Assembly: GCA_903820285.1 (NCBI GenBank)
Contig: CAIJGS010000277.1
Coordinates: 1-40,702 of the forward strand
Source of the DNA: an uncultured Verrucomicrobia subdivision 3 bacterium
GTDB taxonomy: Bacteria > Verrucomicrobiota > Verrucomicrobiia > Limisphaerales > UBA11358
Length of the DNA stretch: 40,702 nucleotides
Direction of reading: 5' to 3'
In this document: positions 22,878 to 37,451 of the stretch, in pieces
How positions within the stretch are numbered: position 1 is the stretch's first letter
Layout of the letters: the number at the start of each line of letters is the position of its first letter
Translations under genes and position numbers: made by a program
Notes under the pieces: generated by a model
Database searches by the model: none
Seen by the model: the letters and a program-made list of their open reading frames with translations, nothing else
What the model was told of the DNA's origin: nothing

Positions 22878-23386
22878 GCAGGACTGCCCGGTTCCAGCCG
22901 GGAGCAGTCATATAAAGTCAATTTTTCCAATTCCGAATCTGAGTAAAACATGTCCGAGGCCGCAGGCTACCGTTTTTAATCCGGCTTGGCCAGCTTTCCG
23001 GAAGGCCAAACTGGTTGACAATTTCCGATGAGTTGACCTGGACAAAATCGCTAGGGCAGGGCTGCCTGCAAAACAAGCGCCCAAATGGAGATGAGTCACG
23101 CCGGAACATGCATATCGGCGTTGATTCCGCTGGTAAACAAGACTCAGGGTCTGCCGGGTTGCGCCAGACTTGCGGGGGCAGGCAATTGCGGTTTAAAAAA
23201 ACACAACGGGATGCTTGAATTTCGTCCGCCTGCCACCTTCGTCTTTGGCGGTGAATGGTCTATTACGTGAAATTTTTCACAAACTTTTCTTGCGGAGAAG
23301 CCCCGCTATTGCTAAATAAATGACTCAACTTTGCGGTGCGGTGGACAATTTTTGACACACCGCTTTTTAATCCCTTATTTGCTGAA
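22878..23386. other. Upstream region of the ACIII operon
   Basis: About 500 bases without a supported gene between two divergent transcription units. It contains a TTGGCC...GGCCAA hairpin near 22986-23010 without a T-run, and the Rex-type operator at 23265-23282. A weak promoter-like pair (TTGCGG at 23290, TAAATA at 23313) lies just downstream of that operator, but the match to consensus is poor. Short open frames here look random. Confidence 0.5.
23265..23282. promoter_or_regulatory. Rex-type operator upstream of the ACIII operon
   Basis: ACGTGAAATTTTTCACAA matches the Rex consensus TTGTGAA-N4-TTCACAA at 12 of 14 fixed positions, with a perfect right half and GTGAA in the left half. It lies 104 bases before the preferred actA start (53 before the alternative start). 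With rex encoded 13 kb away, this supports NADH-responsive control of the respiratory operon; binding itself is inferred. Confidence 0.78.
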
Positions 23387-24049
23387 GTGATTTTTCCGAA
23401 GTGGACAAATTGGTTGCCGCTGGTGCTTGGCCTTGGAGCCGCACTGGCAGGCGGTGGCGTGGTCGCCGGTGTGACGGTTTACCTCACGCCCAAATACACC
23501 CGTGCCGGTTACCAACCCGTGCAACCCGTGCCGTTCTCGCACCGCATTCATGCGGGGCAGTTAGGCGTGGACTGCCGCTATTGCCATAATGGCGTGGAGA
23601 AATCCTGGTTTTCCAACCTGCCCGGCGCCTCGACGTGCATGAACTGCCATAATCAGGTGTTGAAAGATGATGCCCGGTTGCAGATCGTCCGTGACAGCGC
23701 AGCCAATAATACCCCCATTCCTTGGGTTCAGGTCCACAAGGTTCCTGATTACGTCTATTTCAACCATTCCGTGCACGTCAGCCGCGGCATCAGTTGCGTG
23801 GAATGCCATGGGCGCGTGGATCAGATGGATGAAGTGAAGCATGTCAAACCATTCAGCATGAGTTTCTGCCTCGATTGCCATCGCGACCCGGCCTCGCATA
23901 TCCGTCCCACGGACAAGGTTACGAACCTGGGCTGGCAATGGAGCACCAACGCGGCGGAAGCGGCGACGTTGCAGCAGGTGAACGGCCAGAAGTTCGTTCA
24001 TGACTGGAAGGTGGAATCGCTTCAAAGTTGCTCGGCCTGTCATCGATGA
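23387..24049 (+). CDS. actA: ACIII subunit ActA, pentahaem cytochrome c
   Basis: Membrane-anchored periplasmic multihaem subunit of alternative complex III, the quinol:electron acceptor oxidoreductase that replaces bc1. One N-terminal membrane helix (WLPLVLGLGAALAGGGVVAG) precedes five CxxCH haem motifs: CRYCH, CMNCH, CVECH, CLDCH and CSACH, the number expected for ActA. The GTG at 23387 begins MIFPKWTNWLP, which matches family N-termini; an upstream GTG at 23336 would add 17 unconserved residues. Neither has a good Shine-Dalgarno. The stop overlaps the actB ATG by four bases. First gene of the operon, downstream of a Rex-type operator. Confidence 0.9.
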   Translation: MIFPKWTNWLPLVLGLGAALAGGGVVAGVTVYLTPKYTRAGYQPVQPVPFSHRIHAGQLGVDCRYCHNGVEKSWFSNLPGASTCMNCHNQVLKDDARLQIVRDSAANNTPIPWVQVHKVPDYVYFNHSVHVSRGISCVECHGRVDQMDEVKHVKPFSMSFCLDCHRDPASHIRPTDKVTNLGWQWSTNAAEAATLQQVNGQKFVHDWKVESLQSCSACHR

Positions 24050-27000
24050 AAAATTTGAATCATAATTCTGGATCCCCCGTCACCGGCCGCCGTTATTGGC
24101 GCAGTCTGGATGAACTGGCCGAGACGCCGGAGTTCAAAGACTGGCTGCATCGCGAATTTCCGCAGGGTGCCAGCGAAATGGAAGACGGCACGTCCCGCCG
24201 ACATTTCCTGAAGATTATGTCCGCCTCGTTCGCCTTGGCGGGCGTGGCCGTGATGGGTTCGGGTTGCCGCCGGCCGGAAGAGGCGCTGGTGCCGTATGGC
24301 AAGCAGCCGGAAAATTATATTTATGGCACGGCGCAATATTTCGCCACCGCCATGCCCACGCGCACGGGGGCCGTACCGTTGGTGGTTAAGTCCTACGATG
24401 GCCGACCGGTCAAGGTGGAAGGTAATGCCTTCTTCCCCAACAGCAACGGCGGTACCGACCGCTACGTGCAGGCCTCGATTCTTGGTCTGTATGATCCGGA
24501 TCGCGCCCGCCTCTTTAAGCAGGCTGGCAAGAAGGTTTCCCGCGACGAAGCACTCGCTTTTCTGGACACGCTGTCCACGAAGTTTGCCGCCAACCAAGGC
24601 GAAGGTCTCGCCATACTCTCGGAAAGCAGCACCTCGCCGTCCCGGGCGCGGTTGCAGAAGCTGATCGCGACAAAATTTCCCAAGGCACAATGGTTTACGA
24701 GCGACGCCATTGACTCCGCCATCCATCAGCGCGCGGCCACGCTGGCCTTTGGTCAGCCGGTCCGCCCGGTGTTCAATTTCGACAAGGCGCGGGTGATCGT
24801 TTCGCTGGATGCCGATTTCCTCGGCGGCGAAGATGACGCGCACAATCATATTCGAAAGTTTGCGGCCAGCCGTAAGCCGGGCGAAACCATGAACCGCCTG
24901 TACGTGGCGGAATCCCTCTTCACGCTTACGGGCGCGGGCGCGGATCACCGGTTACGCCTAGCGGCCAGTCTGGTGGCACCGCTCGCGCAGTCCTTGCTCG
25001 CCGCCATCAATGGTGGTGCGGTGGCTGCGGTTCCGGGTGTTGACGCCAAGTGGATCGCGGAATGTGCGAAGGATCTCGCGGCCAATCACGGCAATTCGCT
25101 GGTGGTGGCCGGTCAGCGCCAGCCGCTGGAAGTGCATTTGCTCGCGCAGGCGATCAATTCCGCCCTCGGTGCCATTGGCAACACGGTGAGCTTGCTCCCC
25201 GCTCTGGAATCCGCCAGTGGTGACCTTAAGAATTTTGACGGCACCGGTACGGACACGTTCGTTATTCTCGGTGGCAACCCGGTTTACAACCTGAGCTGGG
25301 CGCCGAAGGCCAAGCCTGCCAACGTGGTGCGCCTCGGCTATTACGAGGACGAAACCGCGCTCAAGTGCGACTGGACTTTCCCGGCCACTCATTATCTTGA
25401 ATCCTGGGGTGACGCGATCACGAGCGATGGCATTACCGTTGCCGTGCAGCCGCTCATCCAGCCGCTGTTCGGCGGCTTGACGGAACTGGAATTTCTCGCC
25501 CGGCTCGCGGGTGAATCCGTTACGAATCCCCATGACATTGTCCGGGCCACGCTCGGGGCAGGGGATGAGGCGTGGAAGAAGATTTTGTTCAACGGCTATG
25601 TGGTGGATTCCGCCTCGGCCGGTATCGCCGCGAAATTCAGCGCCACCGCGCCGGAAGTCAAAGCGGTTGCGCCTTCCGCCAGCAGCCTCGAAGTGGTTTT
25701 CTACCGCGATGCGAAGGTGGACGACGGTCGTCTCGCCAACAATGGTTGGATGCAGGAACTGCCTGATCCCATCACCAAGATGACGTGGGACAACGCTGTT
25801 CTCGTGAGCCGCAAAACGGCGTCCGATCTCGGCGTGGCGAATGGCGACATTGTTGAAATTTCCCTGAAGGGACGCACCGTTTCCGGTCCCATCTGGGTGC
25901 AGCCTGGCATGGCCGATTATTCGCTCGGCTTGGCGCTGGGCTATGGCCGTGAAAACGCCGGCCGCGTCGGTACGGGTGTCGGTTTCAACGCCTACAAGAT
26001 TTTCAGCGGCAGCTACGTGGAAAACGGTGCGGCCATTCGCAAGACCGGTGGTACCTACACGCTGGCCTGCACGCAGCATCACTGGTCCATGGAAGGCCGT
26101 CCGGCCGTGCGCGAGGGCAACCTCGAGCAGTTCGCGCAGGACTTCGACTTTACCAAGGGCTATTCCGAAGCGGCACCGCCGGTCGTGAAGTCGCTCTATC
26201 CCAACCCGCTCGATGAAGCCAAGAAGACGGCGCTGCATCAGTGGGGGATGACGATTGACCTCAACTCCTGCGTGGGTTGCGGCACTTGCGTGGTGGCCTG
26301 CCAGAGCGAAAATAACATTCCGATCGTCGGCAAAGACCAGGTCAGCCGCGGCCGCGAAATGCACTGGCTGCGCATTGACCGTTACTTCACCACCGAACCC
26401 TCCCGCCGCAAGCCGGCCGACGCGTTCCAGAAGGATGAGGACCAGCAATTTGAGCAGTGGATTGACGACGTGCAGGCGGTGAACCAGCCGATGCTGTGTC
26501 AGATGTGCGAAACGGCTCCTTGCGAAAGCGTTTGCCCCGTGAATGCCACGGTGCACGACCAGGAAGGTTTGAACGTGATGGCGTACAACCGTTGCATCGG
26601 TACGCGCTATTGTTCAAATAACTGCCCGTACAAGGTTCGTCGCTTTAACTATCTCGATTACAACAAGCGTCCGCTCACCGAACTCAAGGGCACACTGTAC
26701 TCGACCACCCTCACACACAAGACCGACGGCAAGTGGGACTTGTTGCGCTGGTGGAACGATCCCAACAGCGGGATGCGCTCGGAAGATGAATGGGATCTCA
26801 TCAAGCTCTCGAAGAATCCCGATGTGACCGTCCGCATGCGCGGTGTCATGGAAAAGTGCACCTATTGCACCCAGCGCATCGAGCAGGCCAAGATTTCGCA
26901 GAAGGCCAAGGCGGGCGCCTCGGACAACGTGCGGCTCAAGGAATCGGAAAAGACCGTGCCCAAGACCGCGTGCCAGCAGGCGTGCCCGGCCGGAGCGATT

Positions 27001-27231
27001 GTATTCGGCGATGTCAGCGACCCGGACAGCCAGGTGTCGCAATTGAAATTGCAGAAGCGGAATTACTCCGTGCTGGAAGAGCTTCTGACGAAGCCCCGCA
27101 CGACGTATCTGGCCCGCATTCGCAATCCCAATCCGGACATGCCGGATTATCGCAACTGGCCTTACAGCCACGACGAATACGAACAGTTGAATGGCGGCTC
27201 CGCGGAAACTGAAAAGAAAGGGAACAGCTAA
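24046..27231 (+). CDS. actB: ACIII subunit ActB, molybdopterin-oxidoreductase-like / Fe-S protein
   Basis: Large peripheral subunit of ACIII, 1061 residues, a fusion of an MPT-oxidoreductase-like domain lacking the cofactor (ActB1) with a four-cluster ferredoxin domain (ActB2). Near the N-terminus TSRRHFLKIM is a twin-arginine signal followed by a hydrophobic stretch and GSGC (Cys74), so the protein is probably Tat-exported and lipidated. Residues about 90-700 are the MPT-like part. The C-terminal third has the cluster motifs CVGCGTCVVACQ, CQMCETAPCESVCPVNAT, CIGTRYCSNNCPYKVRRFNY and CTYCTQRIEQAK...CQQACPAGAIVFGD, for three [4Fe-4S] and one [3Fe-4S] clusters. ATGA overlap with actA and one-base overlap with actC. 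The frame is open 18 bases upstream of 24046, but ATG 24046 is clearly preferred. Confidence 0.94.
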   Translation: MKNLNHNSGSPVTGRRYWRSLDELAETPEFKDWLHREFPQGASEMEDGTSRRHFLKIMSASFALAGVAVMGSGCRRPEEALVPYGKQPENYIYGTAQYFATAMPTRTGAVPLVVKSYDGRPVKVEGNAFFPNSNGGTDRYVQASILGLYDPDRARLFKQAGKKVSRDEALAFLDTLSTKFAANQGEGLAILSESSTSPSRARLQKLIATKFPKAQWFTSDAIDSAIHQRAATLAFGQPVRPVFNFDKARVIVSLDADFLGGEDDAHNHIRKFAASRKPGETMNRLYVAESLFTLTGAGADHRLRLAASLVAPLAQSLLAAINGGAVAAVPGVDAKWIAECAKDLAANHGNSLVVAGQRQPLEVHLLAQAINSALGAIGNTVSLLPALESASGDLKNFDGTGTDTFVILGGNPVYNLSWAPKAKPANVVRLGYYEDETALKCDWTFPATHYLESWGDAITSDGITVAVQPLIQPLFGGLTELEFLARLAGESVTNPHDIVRATLGAGDEAWKKILFNGYVVDSASAGIAAKFSATAPEVKAVAPSASSLEVVFYRDAKVDDGRLANNGWMQELPDPITKMTWDNAVLVSRKTASDLGVANGDIVEISLKGRTVSGPIWVQPGMADYSLGLALGYGRENAGRVGTGVGFNAYKIFSGSYVENGAAIRKTGGTYTLACTQHHWSMEGRPAVREGNLEQFAQDFDFTKGYSEAAPPVVKSLYPNPLDEAKKTALHQWGMTIDLNSCVGCGTCVVACQSENNIPIVGKDQVSRGREMHWLRIDRYFTTEPSRRKPADAFQKDEDQQFEQWIDDVQAVNQPMLCQMCETAPCESVCPVNATVHDQEGLNVMAYNRCIGTRYCSNNCPYKVRRFNYLDYNKRPLTELKGTLYSTTLTHKTDGKWDLLRWWNDPNSGMRSEDEWDLIKLSKNPDVTVRMRGVMEKCTYCTQRIEQAKISQKAKAGASDNVRLKESEKTVPKTACQQACPAGAIVFGDVSDPDSQVSQLKLQKRNYSVLEELLTKPRTTYLARIRNPNPDMPDYRNWPYSHDEYEQLNGGSAETEKKGNS

Positions 27232-28661
27232 TGTCTGACTCCCTGAACCAATTGAAGGCCTTGGCAGCGCCGGCGGAATTGCGCCGCGCACCGGTGGTCG
27301 AAAACAATCAAGGCCTCGGCTGGCTCACGGACAAGCTGTCCGCGTTCGCCGAAGGCAAGACGCCGCTGTGGTGGTGGATTCTGTTCATCCCCGCCGCGTT
27401 TGCCGCCACGGTCATATTCCCGACCTGCCTGTTCTATCAGGTGTTTACGGGCGTCGGCGTCTGGGGCAACAACCACCCGGTAATGTGGGGCCTCGACATC
27501 GTAAACTTCATCTGGTGGGTCGGTGTGGCTCACGCCGGCACATTGATTTCTGCGCTGCTGTTTCTTACGCGTCAGCATTGGCGCACCACCATCGGCCGCA
27601 TGGCTGAGGCGATGACCGTGTTCTCCGTCATGATGGCGGGCCTGTATCCGGCCATTCACGTCGGCCGCGCCTGGTTCGACTGGTTCATGTTTCCCGTGCC
27701 GAACTCCAACGGACTCTGGCCGCAATTCCGTTCGCCGCTGATGTGGGACGTGTTCGCCGTTAATACCTATCTGACGGTTTCGACCCTGTTCTTTTTCATG
27801 GGCATGATCCCGGATTTTGCCGTGCTGCGGGACCGTTCGACCACCCGCGTCCGCAAGGGGATTTTCACCTTCCTGGCGATGGGTTGGACCGGTTCTGCCC
27901 GTCAGTGGCATCATTATGAAAAGGCCTACCTCGTGCTCTGCGGTTTGTGCACGCTGCTGGTCTTTACCGTGAGTTCCATCGTCGGTCTGGATTTTTGTAC
28001 GGCGCAGATCGCCGGCTGGCATGCGACGATTTTCCCGCTGTATTTTGTAATCGGCGCCGTGTTCTGCGGCTTCGGCATGGTGTTGGTGATTCTTATTCCG
28101 CTCCGCAAATGGTGCGGTCTGGAACAGATCATCACCATGAGCCACATCGACAAGGTCGCCAAGCTGGCCTTGGTCAGCGGCTTGATCATTGATTACATCT
28201 ACCTGATGGAGTTCTTCATCGCCTGGTACAGTGGCGATCAGTATGAACGCTGGGTGTTCGGTCATCGTCTGTTTGGTCATACCTATATGGTGTTGGGCTG
28301 GATGCTGATTGGCATCAACGTGGGTGTCACCCAGTTGCTCTGGTTCAAGAAAGTCCGCTCAAATTTGCTGTGGCTGTTTATCATCGGCGTGCTGATCAAC
28401 ATCGGCATGTGGTGCGAACGCTTCGTCATCGTGGTTGGTTCACTGTATCAGGAATTCCTGCCGTCGAACTGGGGCAAGTATATGCCTACCATGTGGGACA
28501 TCGGTCTCTACATCGGCACGCTCGGCGCGTTTTTCATGCTCTATTTGCTGTTCGTGAAATTCCTGCCCATGATTGCGATTTCCGAAGTCAAGGGCGTCAT
28601 GCCCGAAGCCGACCCGCATCACCGCCTTGGCGGTGCGCAGAAGGAGGACGGCCATGAGTGA
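27231..28661 (+). CDS. actC: ACIII subunit ActC, NrfD-like quinol-interacting membrane protein
   Basis: Polytopic membrane subunit of ACIII of the NrfD/PsrC family, 476 residues, with about ten helices. It is proposed to form the quinol oxidation site and, with ActF, the proton-translocating half-channels. Typical segments are FPTCLFYQVFTGVGVWGNNH, VNFIWWVGVAHAGTLISALL, WRTTIGRMAEAMTVFSVMMA with GLYPAIHVGR, and MWCERFVIVVGSLYQEFLPS. Its ATG shares one base with the actB stop (TAATG) and its end overlaps actD by eight bases, so it is translationally coupled on both sides. Confidence 0.95.
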   Translation: MSDSLNQLKALAAPAELRRAPVVENNQGLGWLTDKLSAFAEGKTPLWWWILFIPAAFAATVIFPTCLFYQVFTGVGVWGNNHPVMWGLDIVNFIWWVGVAHAGTLISALLFLTRQHWRTTIGRMAEAMTVFSVMMAGLYPAIHVGRAWFDWFMFPVPNSNGLWPQFRSPLMWDVFAVNTYLTVSTLFFFMGMIPDFAVLRDRSTTRVRKGIFTFLAMGWTGSARQWHHYEKAYLVLCGLCTLLVFTVSSIVGLDFCTAQIAGWHATIFPLYFVIGAVFCGFGMVLVILIPLRKWCGLEQIITMSHIDKVAKLALVSGLIIDYIYLMEFFIAWYSGDQYERWVFGHRLFGHTYMVLGWMLIGINVGVTQLLWFKKVRSNLLWLFIIGVLINIGMWCERFVIVVGSLYQEFLPSNWGKYMPTMWDIGLYIGTLGAFFMLYLLFVKFLPMIAISEVKGVMPEADPHHRLGGAQKEDGHE

Positions 28662-29193
28662 TAAAATCTACGGCCTGATGGCTGAATTCAATACGCCCGG
28701 CGACGTGCTGCGGGCCGCGAAGAAAGTCCGCGCCGCCGGTTACCACCGGTGGGACGTGTTCTCCCCGTTCCCGATTCACGGAATCGACAAGGTGATGGGG
28801 CTGAAGAATTCGCTGGTCGGCTGGGTCTCGCTTGCCATGGGTGGCGGGGCGTTCGTTTCCGGCTTCGTGCTGCTCTGGTTCAGCAATGCCTTTGATTATC
28901 CCCTGATCGTCGGCGGTAAGCCGATGTTCAGCGTGCCCATGACCTTTGTGCCCTCCTACATCCTCATGGTGATGGGTGGCGCGATCGGCGCACTCGTAGG
29001 CATGCTCGCCTTGAACCAGTTTCCACGCTTGCACCATCCGCTCCTGAACAAGGCACGGTTTGAGCTGGTGAGCCGCGACAAGTTTGTGATTGTGATCGGT
29101 TCCACGGACCCCGGGTTCTCCCTCACCGAAACGCGCAAGCTGCTGGAATCCGCCGGCGGCCAGAACGTTGACATTGTGGAGGACAAAGACTGA
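28654..29193 (+). CDS. actD: ACIII subunit ActD (DUF3341)
   Basis: Small ACIII membrane subunit of 179 residues with two transmembrane helices (about 55-80 and 95-120). The soluble N-terminal part, IYGLMAEFNTPGDVLRAAKK and GYHRWDVFSPFPIHGID, is the DUF3341/ActD signature. The C-terminal FVIVIGSTDPGFSLTETRKL is also conserved. ATG 28654 has the best ribosome binding site of the operon (AAGGAGG, 7-8 bases upstream) inside the end of actC. Its stop shares one base with the actE start (TGATG). ActD packs against ActC in known structures; no redox centre. Confidence 0.95.
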   Translation: MSDKIYGLMAEFNTPGDVLRAAKKVRAAGYHRWDVFSPFPIHGIDKVMGLKNSLVGWVSLAMGGGAFVSGFVLLWFSNAFDYPLIVGGKPMFSVPMTFVPSYILMVMGGAIGALVGMLALNQFPRLHHPLLNKARFELVSRDKFVIVIGSTDPGFSLTETRKLLESAGGQNVDIVEDKD

Positions 29194-29852
29194 TGCGCTA
29201 CATCCTCTCCATCCTTTTGATCGGTGCCGCCTTGGGTGCGGTCGCAGTGGGCATTCTTGGCTTTCAAGGCCGGATGTCGCGCAAGCCGCCATTTGAACTG
29301 TTTCCGGACATGGACCGGCAGGCCAAACTGCGTCCCCAGGAACCGAACCACTTTTTCCCGAACGGCGTCAGCTCCCAGCTGGCTCCGGAAGGAACCGTCG
29401 CGCAGGGCACCCCCATCCAGACCGTGGACGGTCCGGTGTATGCCTTCGAAAATTCCCCGGTGAACACCGGTTGTGTCGCCGGTACGACCAACTTTGTGGA
29501 AACCAATCCGCTGGCGGTGAATGAAGCCCTGATTCGTCGCGGTCAGGACCGGTTTGATATCTATTGCTCGCCGTGCCATGGCCGGTTGGGTGATGGCAAT
29601 GGCATTACCAAGAAATTGGGCGTGATGCCGGCCGTGGCCAACCTGCATGACAATCGCATCGTCAAACTGACCGATGGCGAGATTTTTAACACGATTACCC
29701 ACGGCAAGGGTGTGATGGGCGCGGCGGGGCCGCTGATTCCCACCGCTGACCGTTGGGCTGTGGTCGCCTATGTGCGCGCCTTGCAATTGAGCTGGCTGGG
29801 CACGACCAATGACCTCTCGGCGGCCGAATCTGACCAATTGACGAAGCACTGA
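29193..29852 (+). CDS. actE: ACIII subunit ActE, monohaem cytochrome c
   Basis: Periplasmic monohaem cytochrome c of ACIII, 219 residues. A single N-terminal hydrophobic segment (YILSILLIGAALGAVAVGIL) is followed by the RKPPFELFPDMDRQAKLRPQ motif seen in ActE proteins and one haem site, CSPCHG (125-130); GVMPAVANL and GVMGAAGPLIP follow, providing candidate Met ligands. The segment has no cysteine lipobox, so the protein is probably held by an uncleaved helix and not by lipidation. One base lies between its stop and the actF start. Confidence 0.93.
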   Translation: MRYILSILLIGAALGAVAVGILGFQGRMSRKPPFELFPDMDRQAKLRPQEPNHFFPNGVSSQLAPEGTVAQGTPIQTVDGPVYAFENSPVNTGCVAGTTNFVETNPLAVNEALIRRGQDRFDIYCSPCHGRLGDGNGITKKLGVMPAVANLHDNRIVKLTDGEIFNTITHGKGVMGAAGPLIPTADRWAVVAYVRALQLSWLGTTNDLSAAESDQLTKH

Positions 29853-29853
29853 A

Positions 29854-31083
29854 ATGACCAACGATTCCAATCAACCGGCTCCTTTGAACCTGTCCCGCTG
29901 GCAGGCCGCTCCCGGCCTGCTTATGGTCGTCGGCACGGTACTCTCTGCGTTCGGCCTATTCGCCAGCCCGCAGGAATTCGGTTTCTCCTGGCTGTTTGCC
30001 TTCATTTTCTACTACACCATCGCCCTCGGTGCGCTGTTCATGGTGCTCGTGCATCATCTGACGGACGCCGGCTGGTCCGTGGGTATCCGCCGTTTCTCCG
30101 AACATCTGGCCTCCTTGCTGGGCTGGCCTCTGGTAGCCATGTTCCTTCCGGTGGCGGCGCTGGCTCCGAAAATCTATTCCTGGATGTCGGTTCCCGCCAA
30201 GGAACACCTCATCGCCGCCAAGGCACCGGTGTTTACCACTCCCGGCTTTTATATCACCTCCGCGGTTTTCCTGGCCATCCTGTGGTTTCTGAGTTCCCGT
30301 CTGGCCAGCCTCTCGCTGGCGCAGGACAAGACGGGCGAGGCCAAGTTCACCCATAAGATGCGGTTTCATGCAGGGTGGGGGATTGTAGCTTTCGCGCTGG
30401 TCCTGACCTTCTCCGGCGCTCTGTGGGTCAAGGCCCTGCAATATCAATGGTACTCGGCCATGTATGGCGTATATTTCTTCGGCAGCAGCGTGTGGATCGG
30501 TTTGGCGACCATCTATGTGCTCACTGTCATTCTCCAGCGTCAGGGCTATCTGAAGGGTTTGGTGAAGGAGCATTATTATTACTACATCGGCGTGCTGCTG
30601 ATGGGCTTCACCGTGTTTCAGGCGTATATCGAGTTCGCCCAATATTTCGTGGTGTGGAACGCCAACATGCCGGTGGAAACCTTCTGGTACCTTATCCGTG
30701 AAAACGGCAACTGGTGGACGATCAGCATCATTCTGATTTTTGGTCATTTCCTCCTCCCGTTCTTTCTGCTCCTGCCGCAGAAGATCAAGTCCAATGTCCG
30801 GGTGGTGGTGCCGATCTGCCTGTGGATGTGGTTGATGCACGCGCTGGATCTTGCTTATAACATTTTCCCGGCTTTGCACCCGCAAGGTTATCCGCTCAAA
30901 TGGATCTGGCTGCCGCTCGCGGCGCTCGCTTTCCAGGGCGGTTTCCTGGGTCGTATTTTTGTGAAAAAACTGCACGCGAATCCGCCCTATCCCGCGAAGG
31001 ATCCCCGCCTGCTGGAGGCAATGGGTGTGAACCCGCACCTCGCCAATGAACTGGCCGGTGCTGATGTGGGAGGTGCCCGATGA
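29854..31083 (+). CDS. actF: ACIII subunit ActF, NrfD-like membrane protein
   Basis: Second NrfD-like polytopic subunit of ACIII, 409 residues with about ten membrane helices, a paralogue of ActC. It contains FYYTIALGALFMVLVHHLTD, GWSVGIRRFSEHLASLLGWP and AYIEFAQYFVVWNANMPVET with WYLIRENGNWW, all well conserved in ActF. It lacks redox cofactors and is proposed to take part in proton conduction. Its stop overlaps the next gene by four bases (ATGA). With it the six-subunit ActABCDEF core is complete. Confidence 0.94.
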   Translation: MTNDSNQPAPLNLSRWQAAPGLLMVVGTVLSAFGLFASPQEFGFSWLFAFIFYYTIALGALFMVLVHHLTDAGWSVGIRRFSEHLASLLGWPLVAMFLPVAALAPKIYSWMSVPAKEHLIAAKAPVFTTPGFYITSAVFLAILWFLSSRLASLSLAQDKTGEAKFTHKMRFHAGWGIVAFALVLTFSGALWVKALQYQWYSAMYGVYFFGSSVWIGLATIYVLTVILQRQGYLKGLVKEHYYYYIGVLLMGFTVFQAYIEFAQYFVVWNANMPVETFWYLIRENGNWWTISIILIFGHFLLPFFLLLPQKIKSNVRVVVPICLWMWLMHALDLAYNIFPALHPQGYPLKWIWLPLAALAFQGGFLGRIFVKKLHANPPYPAKDPRLLEAMGVNPHLANELAGADVGGAR

Positions 31084-31448
31084 ATTATAAAACCGCGAAT
31101 AGCGCCTCCGGCGCCGCGCTGGGACTCATCATCGCCAGTGTGATTTTTGCCGTGCTCGCCGTGGTCGTCAAACTGGCCGTGGCGGTACCTGATATTGATG
31201 CCGACCGCGCTGACGCCCGCAGTCAGGCGTTGGCCGAAATTCACACCAACGAAATCGCTTCCCTGGCCAATGTCGGCTGGGTCGATGAATCCCGCGGCCT
31301 TGTCCGTTTGCCCATTGACTCCGCCATCCGTCTCGCCGCCCAAAAATGGCAGAACCCGGCTGCCGCCCGCGCCGACCTGAATGCGCGTGCCGAAGCTGCC
31401 GCTGCGCCCGCTCCCGCGGCCGCGCGCAAACCCAGTGCTTTTGAATGA
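31080..31448 (+). CDS. Small ACIII/oxidase-operon membrane protein, unknown function
   Basis: A 122-residue protein between actF and the CcoN-like gene, overlapping both by four bases (ATGA). Residues 12-36 are one membrane helix. The periplasmic part carries the block GWVDESRGLVRLPIDSAIRL, a W-x-D...G-x-V-R-x-PID-x-A pattern that I recall from small proteins beside oxidase and SCO genes in other bacteria. An Ala/Pro-rich tail (AAAAPAPAAARKP) follows. No haem or metal motif is present. It may be an assembly or linker subunit joining ACIII to the cbb3-like module; that is inference from position. Confidence 0.75.
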   Translation: MNYKTANSASGAALGLIIASVIFAVLAVVVKLAVAVPDIDADRADARSQALAEIHTNEIASLANVGWVDESRGLVRLPIDSAIRLAAQKWQNPAAARADLNARAEAAAAPAPAAARKPSAFE

Positions 31449-32887
31449 ACCCGATCGACAACAAATCCCCGGCCGCCTGCTCCAGCGAGATTGACGCCTC
31501 GTTGCGTGTGCCGCTGCTGGCGCTCTTTGGCGGTGCCGCCCTTTGGCTCGTCGTCGGTCTGGTGTTCGGCCTCCTTGCTGGCATCAAGTTTCATGCCCCC
31601 GACTTTTTGGGAGCCTGTCCGCTCATGACCTACGGCCGGCTCGCTCCGGCGGCCAATGATGCCGTCCTTTACGGTTTTGCGATCCCGGCCGCGCTCGGCG
31701 TGATCCTCTGGATTCTGTCCCGCCTCAGCGGCATGCCGGTGGCTTTACCCATTGTGCCCGTCGTGGCGGCCAACATCTGGAACCTCGGTGTGCTTGTTGG
31801 CACGGTTGGCATTCTGATCGGTGAAAGCACCGGTTACCCTTGGCTTGAATATCCCCGTGCGGCGGCCGTGCTGCTGTTTGCCGCTTTCCTGCTCATCGCA
31901 GTATCGGCGGCGGCCACCTTCGGCTGGCGCCGTCAGCGCGAGCTGTTCCCGGCCCACTGGTTCCTGTTTGCCGCCTTGCTGTGGTTTCCTTGGATTTACT
32001 CCAGCGCCAATCTGTTCCTGACCGCCGTGCACGTGCCGCGTGGCATGGTACAGGCTGTGATTGACTGGTGGTTTGGTAACAACCTCTTGTTCGTCTGGCT
32101 GTCGCTTGCCGGTATCGGCATTGCCTTCTATTTCCTGCCTAAAATCGGCGGCCGTCCGCTGGCCAGCTCCGGTTACGCGTTGTTTGGCTTTCTCACCCTG
32201 ATGTTCTTCGGTTCTTGGGTTGGCATTCCAGTGGGGGCTCCAGTGCCTGCCTGGCTGCCGACCGTCAGCTCCGTTGCCGCCATGCTTTCCATACCGGCGG
32301 TGATCGCCATTGTGATTGTTGGTCTGCGCACCGCCTGCGGTGCCAAGGCGGTTTGCCGTGGCGGACCGTTTTGCTTCATGTGGTTCGGTCTCGTGAGCTT
32401 TTTCCTCGGCAGCATCCTCTATCTGATCACTGGTTGCCCACACTTCGGCCATCTGGTGCAGTTCACCTGGTACGGGGTTGGCCAGACGCAACTGACGCTG
32501 CTCGGTTTCTTCGTGATGGTTGTCTTGGGCGGCATCTATGAAATTCTGTCCAATACCACCGGCTTGGAACTGCCTTTCCCGAAACTGGGCAAGGCTCATT
32601 TCTATCTGGCCATGCTCGGTGTGCTGCTGTACGCCGTACCGTTGCTGATCGGCGGGGTGGAGCAGGGGATTCGATTGCAAAATCCGGCCGTGCCGTTTGC
32701 CGACGCCAATACGGCCGCGTTGCTCTGGCTGCGCATCAGTTCCACGGGGCAGCTGTTGCTTATCCTGGGTTCGCTGTTGCTGGCTCTCAATATTTTCGTC
32801 ATGACGATCAAGTGGAAAATCGCGCTGGGTAAATCCCTGTTCGCAGCGGTCACCGCGCCCCTGCCGGTCACGGAGGTGAAAGCGTGA
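31445..32887 (+). CDS. CcoN-like cbb3-type oxidase subunit I paralogue lacking all haem and copper ligands
   Basis: A 480-residue, 12-helix membrane protein that aligns along its whole length with CcoN (cbb3 subunit I), for example YGRLAPAANDAVLYGFA, VIDWWFGNNLLF...FYFLPKIGGRPL and AHFYLAMLGVLLY. Compared with Pseudomonas stutzeri CcoN from memory, every ligand is replaced: low-spin haem His to Ala70 and Gln349, haem b3 His to Gln347, CuB His to Asn212 and to Gly260/Ile261, and the cross-linked active-site Tyr to Phe254. It therefore cannot be a working oxygen reductase by itself, although it would be annotated as one. The helices and loops are otherwise intact and the frame is clean, which argues for a selected structural role. 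ATGA overlap upstream, GTGA overlap with the CcoO-like gene. Confidence 0.88.
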   Translation: MNPIDNKSPAACSSEIDASLRVPLLALFGGAALWLVVGLVFGLLAGIKFHAPDFLGACPLMTYGRLAPAANDAVLYGFAIPAALGVILWILSRLSGMPVALPIVPVVAANIWNLGVLVGTVGILIGESTGYPWLEYPRAAAVLLFAAFLLIAVSAAATFGWRRQRELFPAHWFLFAALLWFPWIYSSANLFLTAVHVPRGMVQAVIDWWFGNNLLFVWLSLAGIGIAFYFLPKIGGRPLASSGYALFGFLTLMFFGSWVGIPVGAPVPAWLPTVSSVAAMLSIPAVIAIVIVGLRTACGAKAVCRGGPFCFMWFGLVSFFLGSILYLITGCPHFGHLVQFTWYGVGQTQLTLLGFFVMVVLGGIYEILSNTTGLELPFPKLGKAHFYLAMLGVLLYAVPLLIGGVEQGIRLQNPAVPFADANTAALLWLRISSTGQLLLILGSLLLALNIFVMTIKWKIALGKSLFAAVTAPLPVTEVKA

Positions 32888-33672
32888 AAACCGGTATCGG
32901 AGTATTTATTGCGGCCTTTGCCGCGCTCGGGGCCTCCTGGGCCGGCTTCGTGCTGGCACCGGCCCTGCAACTCGGCGGCACCAAGGTGACCACCGTGCTG
33001 AATTCCACCGACGCGTATCCCGTCCAGCGGCCTGGTGAGGCCGCCCTCGGCTTGCAGGTCTATCGCGCCAATGGTTGCGCCGCCTGCCATACCCAGCAGG
33101 TGCAGCAGGATGGCACGTCCTTTGAAGTTGTGCTGACCGGCGCGGGCAAAGACCCCGTTTCCGTCAGCAATCTGGCCGCCGGTTTGAAACTCACCGGCCT
33201 GACCAAGGAAGCGGCCGACGCCGCGGCCAAGTCCCTCGCCGATGCCGGTGGCAAGACCGAGACGCATCTGAGCGGCACCGGTGCTGATATTTCACGCGGC
33301 TGGGGTTCCCGTCACAGTGTGGCGGTGGATTTCCTTTACGACGCCCCGGTTCAGCCCGGCAGTCTGCGCGCCGGTCCCGACCTGACCAACATCGGCGCCC
33401 GGGCGGCCGATGCCAACTGGCAGCTCGTGCATCTCTACGCGCCGCGTGCCATCGTCAAGGATTCGACCATGCCGTCGTTCGCCTATCTGTTTGAAGTGCG
33501 TCCGGCCACCGGCTCCGCCGAGGCGCTGAAACTGCCCGCCGGTTTTGCCGCCCCGGCCGGTTCGGAAGTGGTTCCCACCCCGGCAGCCAAACAACTGGCC
33601 GCTTACCTTTTGAGTCTGCATGCGGATGCGCCGTTGTACGAAGCCCCGTATTCGCAGCTTGCCAAGCCATGA
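32884..33672 (+). CDS. ccoO: CcoO-like cbb3 subunit II, monohaem cytochrome c, with bL12-CTD-like insert
   Basis: Membrane-anchored monohaem cytochrome c of 262 residues. One N-terminal helix (4-27) is followed by YRANGCAACHTQQ (haem site CAACH at 65-69), RGWGSRHSVAVDFLYD, LRAGPDLTNIGAR, LYAPRAIVKDSTMPSFAYL (Met axial ligand) and a C-terminal AAYLLSL helix, all in CcoO order. Between the haem motif and RGWGSRHS is an extra ~55 residues (78-133) starting SFEVVLTGAGKDPVSV and ending LADAGGKTETHL. This resembles a shortened ribosomal bL12 C-terminal domain; ordinary CcoO has about ten residues here. GTG start at 32884 overlaps the preceding stop; ATGA overlap with the next gene. Confidence 0.86.
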   Translation: MKTGIGVFIAAFAALGASWAGFVLAPALQLGGTKVTTVLNSTDAYPVQRPGEAALGLQVYRANGCAACHTQQVQQDGTSFEVVLTGAGKDPVSVSNLAAGLKLTGLTKEAADAAAKSLADAGGKTETHLSGTGADISRGWGSRHSVAVDFLYDAPVQPGSLRAGPDLTNIGARAADANWQLVHLYAPRAIVKDSTMPSFAYLFEVRPATGSAEALKLPAGFAAPAGSEVVPTPAAKQLAAYLLSLHADAPLYEAPYSQLAKP

Positions 33673-34277
33673 GCGAAGATAACCAAAAAAATTGCGGCGG
33701 GAATTCACCGGGCGAACCCGCGGCCACCCGCTCGAATGCGCCGATGTGGATCATTGTCGCCACCCTGACGCTGCTGTTCCTCGGCGGAGTTTATTTCGAC
33801 CGTCACAGCGGTTGGTTTAATCCCCGCGTTTACGCCCCCTACCAGTCTGCCGACCAGCTCGAAGCCTATCAGCCCAAGTCCGGTGCCGCCGCCGCCTTCG
33901 CCAAGGGCAAGGGCGTTTACGAATCCGTCTGCGGCATCTGCCACGGTGCCGACGGTCTCGGCAAACCCGGCATGGCCCCGCCGCTCGCGGGTTCCGAATG
34001 GGTCATTACCAAAGGCTACAATCGCCTTTCCCATGTGCCGCTCGAAGGCCTCAACGGGGCCATCTCGGTGGAAGGCAAGGACTGGACCATGGCCATGGCC
34101 GCGATGGGCGCCGCCCTTCCCGATGATGATCTCGCCGCCGTGCTGACTTACATTCGCGGTTCCTGGGGTAACAAAGCCGGCGAAGTGACCGGCGACGAAA
34201 TCAAAAAGATTCGCGCCGACCTTGGCAAGAATCCCGCCCCCGCCACCAGCGACCAGCTCAAGGCGATGCCCGAATAA
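33669..34277 (+). CDS. Membrane-anchored monohaem cytochrome c (CcoP-like / ACIII-associated)
   Basis: A 202-residue class I cytochrome c with one membrane helix (27-43) and one haem site, CGICHG (88-93). Around it are KGVYESVCGICHGADGLGKP and GMAPPLAGSEW; the C-terminal MAAMGAALPDDDLAAVLTYI supplies the probable Met ligand and the usual last helix. As the final gene of the operon, downstream of the CcoO-like gene with an ATGA overlap, it takes the place of CcoP, but it has one haem where CcoP usually has two. It probably carries electrons from ACIII (ActE/CcoO) to a terminal oxidase or soluble cytochrome. Confidence 0.88.
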   Translation: MSEDNQKNCGGNSPGEPAATRSNAPMWIIVATLTLLFLGGVYFDRHSGWFNPRVYAPYQSADQLEAYQPKSGAAAAFAKGKGVYESVCGICHGADGLGKPGMAPPLAGSEWVITKGYNRLSHVPLEGLNGAISVEGKDWTMAMAAMGAALPDDDLAAVLTYIRGSWGNKAGEVTGDEIKKIRADLGKNPAPATSDQLKAMPE

Positions 34278-34337: not shown

Positions 34338-34482
34338 TTAACCACAAAGAACGCATAGAACGCAAAGAAGGGAGGAAAGAACCGGTTTCAGAAGTTGGGG
34401 ACTGCACTCTGCCCCAAGTAGCAATGCCGCCAATCCCTTCGGCCTTTCCCATCTCTGTGCTCTCTGCGTTCTCTGTGGTTAA
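34338..34482. repeat. Interspersed inverted repeat (TTAACCACAAAGA type)
   Basis: AACCACAAAGAACGCA at 34340-34355 pairs with TGCGTTCTCTGTGGTT at 34465-34480, 15 of 16 positions complementary, and the pairing extends into TTA/TAA at both ends. Between the arms are about 110 bases without a gene. The left arm begins right after the terminator T-run, and the right arm contains the stop codon (complement of 34479-34481) of the gene on the minus strand, as if the element had inserted there. Confidence 0.85.
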
Positions 34483-37451
34483 TTTCCTGTGTTTTTCGGA
34501 GCAATTCCCGCATCCCCGGCCTTGGTATTCACTGACTGCAATAGCTTTTCCGTGGGCCGCGAGACAATCACACTCTCGAACAGCGTCGAGTTAAGCACGG
34601 CATTGTTATGTCCCGTCACGGCCAGACCGGCCTGCAGGGTTTTACCCATCGGCACTGTTACCGAGCCGGCGGCGATCCAGTTGGTACCATCTGCCGAAAT
34701 ATAGCCGGAGAACAGATCCTTGTTGCGGATGAGTTTTAACCAATGCGGCAACTTGGAGAGCGGACCGTCCGCGCTGAGCGTGCCGTTGTCCGCTTGGGAC
34801 CGGGATTGAAACACCGCCCCCCCCTGGCCCGTCAACGCCAGAAACGCATAGCGTGCACCAGCTGAATTGTTTTCCCGGAACATGATGCCCGCCTTGCACC
34901 ACGGATCCGTATATTGCACGGAAACCACGCGCGCCACGATCACTCCGTCGCCCGCCAATGGTTTGCTCGCGAAATGGAAGGCATCCGCGTTTTCCCAGAT
35001 GTCGCTGCCCGAAGCGAGCAGGTTGAACCGGCCGTTCAGATAACTGGCCTCGCCGGAAACGCCCACCGCGCCGACATCCGTGTCGCTCCAGCCCCGGGGC
35101 AGGGAAGTGGTCACCGGCGGCAGCGACGCTATCCATTTGCCGATCACCGCCACGGCCTTGGCATCTACCACGTTTTTGCCGAGTGGCGGCATCTGGCCTT
35201 CGCCCACAATGCTGATACGGTGAAACAGAATGGACTTGTTCGTGTCCCCGGGAACTATCACCTTCGCGCCGGCAATGCCCAGTTGGTTCGCCACCGGGCC
35301 GTTGATGAGATTCTGTTTCTGTAGCGGCGTGTCGAAGCGCGCGTCAAAGAACGCGCCCGCGCCGCCCGGACGATGGCATTGTGAGCAGTTGGCATCCAGA
35401 TAGGAACGCACCCGCAATTCCATGGCCACGGCGGCATTGGTAATGCTGTAAAGGCGTGGATAGCGGTAAATTTTTCGCTCATCAAATGCCTTGTCGAACA
35501 GGCCGATGTGGCCGAGCGCGCGCAACTGGTTATCCGTAATGCCCGTGGGATATTTGTAATCCCCGTTCAACTGGCGCGTGTTGATGCCCAGCACCCCGCC
35601 GGACGCCGTGGTATGGCACGTCAGACAGTCCTGCCGTCCCGGATAAAACCAGTGCTGCATGCGTGTGCCATTCGTGGTGGCAATGGCAATGTCCTCCGTG
35701 AATCCCGTGGTGACCAGGTCGGCATCTGTGTGATCCTCGCGCCATTTATAAGTGGCGCCATACACCGCGCCATTGGTGTCCCGCACCATGATCCGCGTTT
35801 CCAGCCGGCGCAGGATTTTCGGATTCGTGTCATCCACCGGCAAATCGAAATGTTTGACGAACACCGAGCCGGATGGAAACGCCCATTCACCCGTCGCTGT
35901 AAAGCCAACCACCGTTCCGGCGGGTATGGTCATCCACCGGGTTTTTACTGCGTTATCCGACCACAACATCGAATTGACCCCATAGGGAATCAAGGCGGAC
36001 CCCGGTTGTAGCGTGGCCAGGTCCGCAAACACCCCGGTTTGCGAGAGCAGTTTGGGCAGCGTTCGCGCTGGCGGGGGCGGACCGCCCCGCTTCAGCTTGA
36101 AGATTCCGCCGCCGATGCTGCTCATCTGGCAGAAATAAAGTTCGCCGGCCGCGTCTGTGCCGAAGGACGAAAGTCCCGTGTAATCCGTTCCCGAATTTGG
36201 CCCCGTGCCCTTGGGCATCACGCACAGCACTGTCTTTTTGAACGGCGTCGCCGTTTCATCCAGCGCCCAGATGATGCGCAGGACGTTGTCGCCGAAAATG
36301 TATTTGCCGCCGAGGTCATGCGCAAATTCGCTGCCGCGATACACGTACCCACCAATCACTGCGCGTCCGTCCGTGTGCGGATAATCCAGCACCGGCCCGC
36401 GGCTGATGCCAAGGTACGGTGCCTCCATTTTGCCCAGATTGCCTTCGCAACGGTTCCACTGGAAATTCAGGCCGGACTCGCCTGGCTCAATGGCATCAAT
36501 CTCCTCGCGCGAACTTTCGCCCACATCTCCGATGAAAATCCGGCCCGTCGGCGGGTCAATCGTCATGCGATGCGGACTTCGCAAGCCCAGGCAGAAAAAT
36601 TCCTCCAGCACATTCGTCTGCCCAACGAACGGATTGTCGTTTGGAATGAAATAATTTGCCGTGAATCCGCCCGTCGGCTGGCGCGGAGCTGGATGGCTGA
36701 TGCTCCCACCCCGGCAATCCACATCAATCCGGAACACGCCCGAGTACAGGCTCTTGGTAATGATCTGGTCATTGTCGCCCACTGAATTGTCGCCGTCCGT
36801 CCAGTAAAGAAACCCGTTCTGCGGATGGAAGAAGATGCCGCCGCCGTGATGCCACACGGTCTGGTTTGTGAGATCCACAAAGGTGGCAACTGAAGCGGGC
36901 AGGGCGACCGCATTGGCATCCAGCGTATAGCGTTCCAACCGGTCATGGTAGGTGTCCGGCAGGTTGGGCACCGGCCGGGTCGTTGGACTGCCCGCCACCG
37001 TGCCCGGCTTCACCCAGGTATAATAGACGAACATCAGATGATTCGTGGCAAACCCGGGATGAAACGCCACCCCCAGCAACCCGGAATCATCCCAGCCCTG
37101 ACACTGGTTGCTGACGTCCAGCACCAGCTTCTTTTCGCTCACGTCCGGTGAATTCTTGAACAGCCACACCCGACCCTCGCGTTCCCACACGCATAATTCA
37201 TCCGTACCCGGCACCGAGGTGAGCCCCACGCTGTTGGTAAAGAGCAGATTGGTAAACGCATTCACCGCCGACCAATTGCCCGAAATGGTCGGTGCCACCT
37301 CCGGCAAAACGCCGTTCAGGAAGGCGCCGGTTGGCTGGCGACCGGTCAGCCCATAAGGCCGGGCGAATATGGGGACAGTGAAGCCGGCGAGCAACGCGAT
37401 CAGGACCAGCGTCCGGCACGGCACGAGAAAGAATAAAGACAACTTTTTCAC
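34479..37451 (-). CDS. Secreted GSDH-type dehydrogenase / dihaem cytochrome / jelly-roll fusion protein
   Basis: Exported protein of 990 residues with a signal peptide (SLFFLVPCRTLVLIALLAGF, about 5-25, ending IFA-R). Residues about 50-460 are a PQQ-type glucose/sorbosone dehydrogenase beta-propeller (ELCVWEREGRVWLF, GLLGVAFHPGF, VWHHGGGIFFHPQNGFLYWT, FIGDVGESSREEIDAIEPGE). Residues about 470-765 match the SO2930-type dihaem cytochrome family (LIPYGVNSMLWSDNAVKTRW) with haem sites CLTCH (609-613) and CSQCH (689-693) and GEGQMPPLG as a Met-ligand region. Residues 775-975 are a DUF1349-like jelly-roll (AGIMFRENNSAGARYAFLAL). Sugar or alcohol oxidation feeding electrons through the haems is plausible; the substrate is unknown. 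Its stop codon lies inside an inverted repeat. Confidence 0.86.
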   Translation of the reverse strand: MKKLSLFFLVPCRTLVLIALLAGFTVPIFARPYGLTGRQPTGAFLNGVLPEVAPTISGNWSAVNAFTNLLFTNSVGLTSVPGTDELCVWEREGRVWLFKNSPDVSEKKLVLDVSNQCQGWDDSGLLGVAFHPGFATNHLMFVYYTWVKPGTVAGSPTTRPVPNLPDTYHDRLERYTLDANAVALPASVATFVDLTNQTVWHHGGGIFFHPQNGFLYWTDGDNSVGDNDQIITKSLYSGVFRIDVDCRGGSISHPAPRQPTGGFTANYFIPNDNPFVGQTNVLEEFFCLGLRSPHRMTIDPPTGRIFIGDVGESSREEIDAIEPGESGLNFQWNRCEGNLGKMEAPYLGISRGPVLDYPHTDGRAVIGGYVYRGSEFAHDLGGKYIFGDNVLRIIWALDETATPFKKTVLCVMPKGTGPNSGTDYTGLSSFGTDAAGELYFCQMSSIGGGIFKLKRGGPPPPARTLPKLLSQTGVFADLATLQPGSALIPYGVNSMLWSDNAVKTRWMTIPAGTVVGFTATGEWAFPSGSVFVKHFDLPVDDTNPKILRRLETRIMVRDTNGAVYGATYKWREDHTDADLVTTGFTEDIAIATTNGTRMQHWFYPGRQDCLTCHTTASGGVLGINTRQLNGDYKYPTGITDNQLRALGHIGLFDKAFDERKIYRYPRLYSITNAAVAMELRVRSYLDANCSQCHRPGGAGAFFDARFDTPLQKQNLINGPVANQLGIAGAKVIVPGDTNKSILFHRISIVGEGQMPPLGKNVVDAKAVAVIGKWIASLPPVTTSLPRGWSDTDVGAVGVSGEASYLNGRFNLLASGSDIWENADAFHFASKPLAGDGVIVARVVSVQYTDPWCKAGIMFRENNSAGARYAFLALTGQGGAVFQSRSQADNGTLSADGPLSKLPHWLKLIRNKDLFSGYISADGTNWIAAGSVTVPMGKTLQAGLAVTGHNNAVLNSTLFESVIVSRPTEKLLQSVNTKAGDAGIAPKNTGN

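Follow-up and report, generated by a model that had tools for sequence, protein, structure and literature searches.

The window analysed here, contig CAIJGS010000277.1 (40,702 nucleotides, assembly GCA_903820285.1) of an uncultured Verrucomicrobia subdivision 3 bacterium, carries at positions 31445..32887 of the plus strand a gene for a 480-residue homologue of CcoN, subunit I of cbb3 oxidase, within an operon for alternative complex III (ACIII). A phmmer search of PDB aligned residues 32-453 of the protein with P. stutzeri CcoN (3mk7_A, E 2.4e-20), and the protein matched Pfam COX1 (PF00115) with 117.7 bits against a cut-off of 34.8 (E 7.7e-34); on the curated ccoN model TIGR00780 it reached 106.4 bits, far under the cut-off of 583.15. 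All six histidine ligands of the haem and copper sites, together with the cross-link tyrosine, are replaced in this protein, a state that we call ligand-less (a pseudo-oxidase). The first-pass annotation of the window had expected automatic annotation to name such a protein an oxygen reductase, and this expectation is supported.

Loss of the metal ligands

Taking H60, H207, H257, H258, H347 and H349 to be the ligands of CcoN and Y251 its cross-link tyrosine, we found 0/7 of these residues kept in the window protein: H60 falls on Ala70, H207 on Asn212, Y251 on Gly256, H257 on Pro262, H258 on a gap, H347 on Gln347 and H349 on Gln349 (phmmer and our own alignments). The alignment with 3mk7_A thus bears out the first-pass claim that every haem and copper ligand is gone; the earlier assignments for H60, H207, H347 and H349 stand, while those for the tyrosine (Phe254) and the CuB pair (Gly260/Ile261) were one to two positions off, which leaves the conclusion unchanged. 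The six histidines that the protein does contain (50, 171, 196, 333, 336 and 385) coincide with no ligand position, which rules out migrated histidine ligands. Since the same loss is common to the four nearest relatives found (L007, L005, L006 and L038, with 94%, 61%, 58% and 50% identity), it is not due to chance. A crude hydropathy scan gave 11 strong transmembrane (TM) peaks in the window protein and 9 in the intact relative L041, so that a count of 12 helices rests on homology. As judged by sequence, the fold has no means of binding haem b, haem b3 or CuB and is therefore incapable of O2 reduction.

The gene does not look like one in decay, which the first-pass annotation had named as evidence that would speak against repurposing: the ratio of non-synonymous to synonymous substitution (dN/dS, Nei-Gojobori) was 0.05-0.24 over 16 hand-picked pairs of ligand-less CcoN that partly share species, and 0.079 for the window gene against L007. 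With its catalytic residues lost, and its fold residues and purifying selection kept, the protein is a predicted pseudoenzyme.

The ACIII operon of the window

As the first-pass annotation had it, the frame is intact and tightly coupled in its operon, the 480-residue open reading frame (ORF) being uninterrupted and overlapping both of its neighbours by 4 bp. All genes of the operon lie on the plus strand, in the order ActABCDEF-smallG-CcoN-CcoO-cytochrome c, with ActA to ActF complete and in order: ActA (23336..24049), a cytochrome with five CXXCH motifs; ActB (24046..27231, ATG used as start), with Mo-oxidoreductase-like and Fe-S domains (QrcC E 3.3e-50, QrcB E 1.1e-19); the NrfD-like ActC (27231..28661, PF03916 E 1.6e-15); ActD (28654..29193, PF11821 E 3.6e-55, internal ATG used as start); ActE (29193..29852), a mono-haem cytochrome c; and ActF (29854..31083), which had no Pfam match and was assigned by operon position and phmmer relatives. 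Between ActF and CcoN lies a small subunit with one TM segment, conserved at this position, that we named smallG (31080..31448) and that matched no Pfam or NCBIfam family. Downstream come a CcoO-like mono-haem cytochrome c with one TM peak (32884..33672, FixO E 4.5e-19; CXXCH and STMPSF kept) and, overlapping it by 4 bp, a membrane-anchored mono-haem cytochrome c in the position of CcoP (33669..34277, Cytochrom_C E 1.9e-10). One CXXCH is present in each of these two partners, which accordingly retain their haem motifs as first annotated. A profile made from six CcoS-like sequences found no CcoS-like ORF within the operon. On the minus strand at 34479-37451, a gene running towards the operon encodes a 990-residue protein that contains CXXCH-like motifs.

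Elsewhere in the window genome there are three further COX1 homologues: an A-type-like COX1 with coxC, coxB and sco-like neighbours on contig C124; a fused CcoNO with intact ligands on C126, adjoined by the FixS match of the genome; and on C269 a 770-residue protein that resembles quinol nitric oxide reductase by eye only and received no type from NCBIfam. Among the COX1 homologues, NCBIfam assigned no type to L003, L164 and L167. Besides its ligand-less CcoN, the organism thus possesses two intact COX1 proteins, one of A-type and one of cbb3 type.

Ligand loss among ACIII-linked loci

The three relatives that a search returned first (94, 60 and 57% identity there; two titled Verrucomicrobia and one 'bacterium') matched the window in operon genes as well as in ligand loss. 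We then covered one phylum with a profile search of 387 genomes, which gave matches in 122 at E<=1e-10, some of them fused or other CcoN; the surroundings of 106 matches were examined, and 95 loci with CcoN beside ActF were compared, namely the window, L005-L007 and 91 others. The gene order of the window is the rule among them. All seven active-site residues are kept in 27/95 loci, and the remaining 68/95 are ligand-less, with 44 different residue sets; among these ACIII-linked loci ligand loss is hence more frequent than retention, and the search of other ACIII operons for ligand-less CcoN that the first-pass annotation had proposed proved productive. Among the 68 ligand-less copies none of the seven residues is kept in 21, one in 40, two in 5 and three in 2. 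Tyr251 and His257 are gone in 68/68 and His347 in 67/68, none has all three CuB histidines, and both low-spin haem histidines are present in L039 and L047 alone. A conserved alternative ligand set can be rejected, given 44 sets among 68 copies. While many active-site and cavity columns lose their residue in the ligand-less copies, the framework stays, including W34, G64, R65, W112, N113, W172, W183, W209, P232, K233, P266, P268, Y365, H385, G404 and G408, each present in at least 85% of ligand-less and at least 90% of intact copies. At three loci (L098, L102 and L105, in genomes G187, G190 and G199) only ActE and ActF adjoin the ligand-less CcoN and an A-type COX1; with ActB on another contig in these genomes, the ACIII operon is split there.

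How often the ligands were lost depends on the tree. The CcoN tree (102 rows), in which most ligand-less rows come together on long branches, explains the two ligand states with 3 changes, or 4 when the ligand columns are removed, whereas a concatenated tree of ActB, ActC and ActF (86 rows: 60 ligand-less, 26 intact) needs 9, of which 8 are forced by well-supported branches; both are quick trees. Midpoint rooting gave 11 maximal ligand-less clades. A single loss, with all ligand-less copies as one clade, was rejected by the ACIII genes in the approximately unbiased (AU) test (p-AU 3.9e-5) and also by CcoN with the ligand columns and their neighbours removed (p-AU 0.0016). On these sequence comparisons the ligands were lost more than once; the count is uncertain, since the two trees disagree and the long ligand-less branches may attract each other in the CcoN tree. 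Ligand-intact proteobacterial CcoN from a tblastn search of plasmids (371 records) served only as outgroup; the four examined are all intact (4/4), 43-47% identical to the intact L041 and, where annotated, have no ACIII link. With such outgroups the loss is most simply the derived state, from what we infer to be an intact ancestry. Two of the plasmids (L193, Paraburkholderia; L194, Azoarcus) carry ligand-intact CcoN-CcoO-cytochrome c operons, with no ACIII genes in the stretch shown, and their CcoN is closer to the ACIII-linked family than is the CcoNO of the window genome.

Concomitant absence of a CcoS-like gene

In intact operons (26 loci) a median of 260 bp separates smallG from CcoN, vs. 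13.5 bp in ligand-less ones (44 loci), and an ORF of 61-91 residues lies inside all 14 intact gaps that were read. Three such ORFs matched Pfam FixS just under its cut-off (E 1e-4 to 5e-4, 20-22 bits against 23.1) and matched no NCBIfam model. With a CcoS-like profile built from six of the 27 intact-operon ORFs, the gene was found in 27/27 intact vs. 0/68 ligand-less operons at E<=0.001 (L068 matched at E 0.23), a profile to which 4/7 other cbb3 loci gave no match at the same threshold. On the ACIII tree, the CcoS and ligand states form 8 independent pairs, all in the same direction (p 0.0078). A FixS search across 26 whole genomes placed a match beside the ACIII-linked CcoN in 5/6 intact genomes, with 2 of the 5 under the cut-off; among 19 ligand-less genomes only the window genome and G295 had a match over the cut-off, in both cases beside a separate CcoNO, and there was none in the six f4 genomes, for a search that also missed G348 and G172 with their fused CcoNO-like genes and that at E<=0.05 matched 4/14 control genomes. 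In the available part of PMC10588857, CcoS is required for insertion of haem b into the cbb3 oxidase of R. capsulatus, and mutants without CcoS are described, in that of PMC5742617, as holding fully assembled but inactive cbb3, showing that a CcoN complex lacking working haem b sites can assemble.

Partner cytochromes and other oxidases

One CXXCH is present in CcoO and in the cytochrome c of 68/68 ligand-less operons, as it is in intact ones (27/27 and 25/25, respectively). CcoO of family f3 (e.g., L076, L084 and L094) has Cys in place of the putative axial Met in a SxCPS-like motif, suggesting altered ligation of haem c, and four CcoO frames (L075, L086, L107 and L124) are over-long at 451-684 residues, by fusion or over-extension. 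In 13 operons, all ligand-less (L076, L082, L084, L094, L096, L099, L100, L103, L110, L111, L114, L122 and L125), the place of smallG is taken by a TM protein whose C-terminal part is an extra cytochrome c domain with one haem motif; the smallG profile matches 6/13 of these proteins at E<=0.005 and the others weakly or not, and no such protein was found between ActF and CcoN in the 27 intact operons.

An A-type-like COX1 (E<=1e-60) was found in 64/65 ligand-less genomes, the sole exception being G384 with a COX1 match split across two contig ends. By hand count, it lies less than 6 kb from the operon in 26/65 ligand-less vs. 1/28 intact-group genomes; the 26 belong to four families (13 f3, 6 f8, 5 f4 and 2 f16) and so represent few independent cases. 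Of six adjacent COX1 regions that were read, four have a CuA motif nearby (L177, L179, L182 and L187), in two of them with CXXCH in the same protein.

Methanotrophic relatives

Genes of the pmoA type (PF02461) are present in all six f4 genomes searched and in none of three f10 genomes. In G152, matched to Methylacidiphilum kamchatkense Kam1, the ACIII-linked CcoN (L140) is ligand-less with residues SESSHFV, and profile and FixS searches of this genome found no other CcoN and no FixS match; in G042, G054, G072 and G265, as in G152, the ligand-less ACIII-linked protein is the sole CcoN-type protein found. The six f4 genomes gave 30 matches to PF00115. Strong similarity to the A-type reference was seen in 11 of them, motif and length mark 7 as ba3-like, the ligand-less CcoN accounts for 4, and the other 8 matched none of the four references used; four of these eight were tested against the ccoN model and did not match it. 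In G072 a nos cluster (L143, 7400-13603; NosZ at 957 bits, NosD and NosL by family models) lies between ActF and the pseudo-CcoN, a position that agrees with the description of M. caldifontis IT6 as far as that source was available. The available part of PMC6688271 interprets the ACIII-linked genes as a cbb3 oxidase that agrees with the O2 affinity of SolV, and a cbb3 oxidase is also counted in these methanotrophs in the accessible parts of PMC8498564, PMC10205796 and PMC11102522; the portion available of PMC3404531, on expression of methanotroph genes, names no such oxidase. We suggest that published cbb3 assignments in verrucomicrobial methanotrophs need revisiting.

Discussion

The alignment, the operon and dN/dS together support the first-pass proposal that a ligand-less CcoN in an ACIII operon has been repurposed as a scaffold, and the scaffold itself, predicted to be metal-free and found to be conserved, is well supported. 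The prevalence of ligand loss, its recurrence and the accompanying absence of the CcoS-like gene go beyond what the first-pass annotation had anticipated. As for what it does, we consider it probable that a metal-free CcoN scaffold carries the relay through which electrons of ACIII reach a separate aa3/caa3 oxidase. The ancestor of the window gene would have been a working ACIII-linked cbb3-type oxidase. Once another oxidase was available, the binuclear centre and CcoS may have become dispensable while the docking surface did not, and ACIII, the metal-free CcoN, smallG, CcoO and the membrane-anchored cytochrome c would have stayed together as one module. In this module CcoN would hold the haems of CcoO and cytochrome c at the periplasmic face, and electrons would pass from menaquinol through the ACIII haems to CcoO or cytochrome c and on to the separate aa3/caa3 oxidase, whose genes lie next to the operon in some relatives and on another contig (C124) of the window genome. 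This gene content (COX1 in 64/65 genomes and nearby in 26/65, CXXCH in 68/68) suits one example offered in the first-pass annotation, a dock at which ACIII would pass electrons to a separate oxidase. The relay to aa3 is suggested by gene content and adjacency; likewise, the physical association, the path of the electrons and the absence of another cofactor from the CcoN core are what we infer. More broadly, we lean towards repeated neofunctionalisation, in which oxidase cores of Verrucomicrobiota would have been gutted, along with CcoS, into a cofactor-free structural bracket for electron relay from ACIII; this would correspond to 3-4 state changes on the CcoN tree, 8-9 on the ACIII-gene tree or 11 ligand-less clades if loss is irreversible, with aa3, caa3, a separate true cbb3 and, in one methanotroph, perhaps N2O reductase as acceptors.

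Several observations weigh against a relay through a cofactor-free CcoN: 1) L039 and L047, with both low-spin histidines, might bind one haem b; 2) the CcoO of 27/27 intact operons has Met at the putative axial position, but that of ligand-less operons does so in only 42/64 (the four over-long CcoO excluded), the other 22 having 15 Cys, 3 Arg, 2 His, 1 Lys and 1 Ala, and the lineages concerned may thus have a CcoO haem that is altered or idle; 3) the A-type COX1 is not beside the operon in 39/65 ligand-less genomes, that of the window included; 4) an A-type COX1 is also present in 24/28 intact-group genomes, and a second oxidase alone therefore does not predict ligand loss; and 5) dN/dS is higher in ligand-less than in intact CcoN (0.01-0.07 in four of six intact pairs, dS being saturated in the other two), so purifying selection on the ligand-less copies persists but is somewhat relaxed.

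The second of these points would also suit a CcoN that serves ACIII only, as a subunit for stability, assembly or spacing that takes the place of the oxidase in the membrane of ACIII-aa3 supercomplexes and has no role in relay. The conserved framework and the location of the gene within the ACIII operon are in keeping with such a subunit, as is the contact of F. johnsoniae ACIII with its oxidase via subunit III of CytcO, given in the available part of PMC8361435. We regard it as unlikely, however, because the CXXCH in both partners of every ligand-less operon, the Met in most CcoO and the extra cytochrome c domain in 13 ligand-less operons all speak for a redox function of the module.

That a CcoN relic still conducts protons or couples charge for ACIII appears highly doubtful. 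Some buried polar positions persist (Y223 in 60/68 and Y237 in 51/68, numbered here, like those that follow, as in the CcoNO of the window genome), but T215, S240 and Y317, which we take to be polar residues of the K-pathway, are kept in 10/68, 19/68 and 23/68 ligand-less copies vs. 27/27 each in intact ones, and in the window protein these three positions are occupied by Ser, Ala and Phe, and positions 223 and 237 by Phe and Ser. The proton-channel relic put forward in the first-pass annotation thus fits less well than the dock. It is also very improbable that the pocket holds a different cofactor, be it through other haem ligation, a quinone or another metal: polar or basic replacements are seen repeatedly (Gln/Gln, Arg/Trp, Lys), and L039 and L047 still have their low-spin ligands, yet the many residue sets have no substitute ligand in common, and the cross-link tyrosine, H257 and almost always H347 have gone. 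There is next to no likelihood that the window CcoN is a decaying gene or an assembly artefact since, even with the raised dN/dS and an end branch of 0.59 for L063 in the CcoN tree (vs. 0.02-0.10 for intact f2 relatives), decay is rejected by dN/dS, by the conserved framework and by the listed matches being free of internal stops, and artefact by the ligand-less state of single-contig genomes such as G152.

The proposed scaffold with its electron relay differs from each known system that it resembles. With cbb3 oxidase (CcoN/CcoO/CcoP; PDB 3mk7 and 6xkw) it shares near full-length CcoN homology and the gene order of CcoO and cytochrome c, but it is without the ligands for haem b, b3 and CuB, the cross-link tyrosine and a CcoS-like operon gene. 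Respiratory enzyme folds kept in ACIII without their catalytic cofactor have a general example in the degenerate Mo-oxidoreductase domain of ActB, whereas the change in CcoN is lineage-specific and repeated. The ACIII-aa3/caa3 supercomplexes of F. johnsoniae and Rhodothermus marinus, as given in the available parts of PMC8552683 and PMC8361435, have ActABCDEF in common with our operon, where delivery to aa3/caa3 is a proposal; in our case ActF is separated from the oxidase genes by a metal-free module of cbb3 descent, or this module takes the place of a linked oxidase. The 'cbb3 oxidase' linked to ACIII in verrucomicrobial methanotrophs and in Opitutaceae (PMC8498564 and PMC6688271, in the parts available) is the same operon, presented there as a high-affinity oxygen reductase and found ligand-less here (L140). 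A partial precedent is provided by the 'bd-like oxidases' of Nitrospinae, in which, according to the available part of PMC8026999, some haem-copper-type ligands are replaced (one CuB His to Gln, the high-spin haem His to Phe); only these two positions are affected, the protein is not CcoN, and no ACIII operon is described in that part. Our searches of open-licence papers brought up no report of a ligand-less CcoN.

Subunit I of a haem-copper oxidase is commonly taken as proof of O2 reduction. Since a widespread subfamily passes the Pfam COX1 cut-off without a complete haem/copper site, claims on respiration and O2 affinity that are based on annotation are at risk, and the high O2 affinity of Methylacidiphilum in print, in line with a 'cbb3' oxidase, appears to rest on a ligand-less gene. 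We surmise that the repeated paired loss of ligands and CcoS-like gene amounts to a natural experiment, in which ACIII would need the scaffold of its linked oxidase and not its catalysis, and the question of how ACIII hands over its electrons becomes testable in cultured strains.

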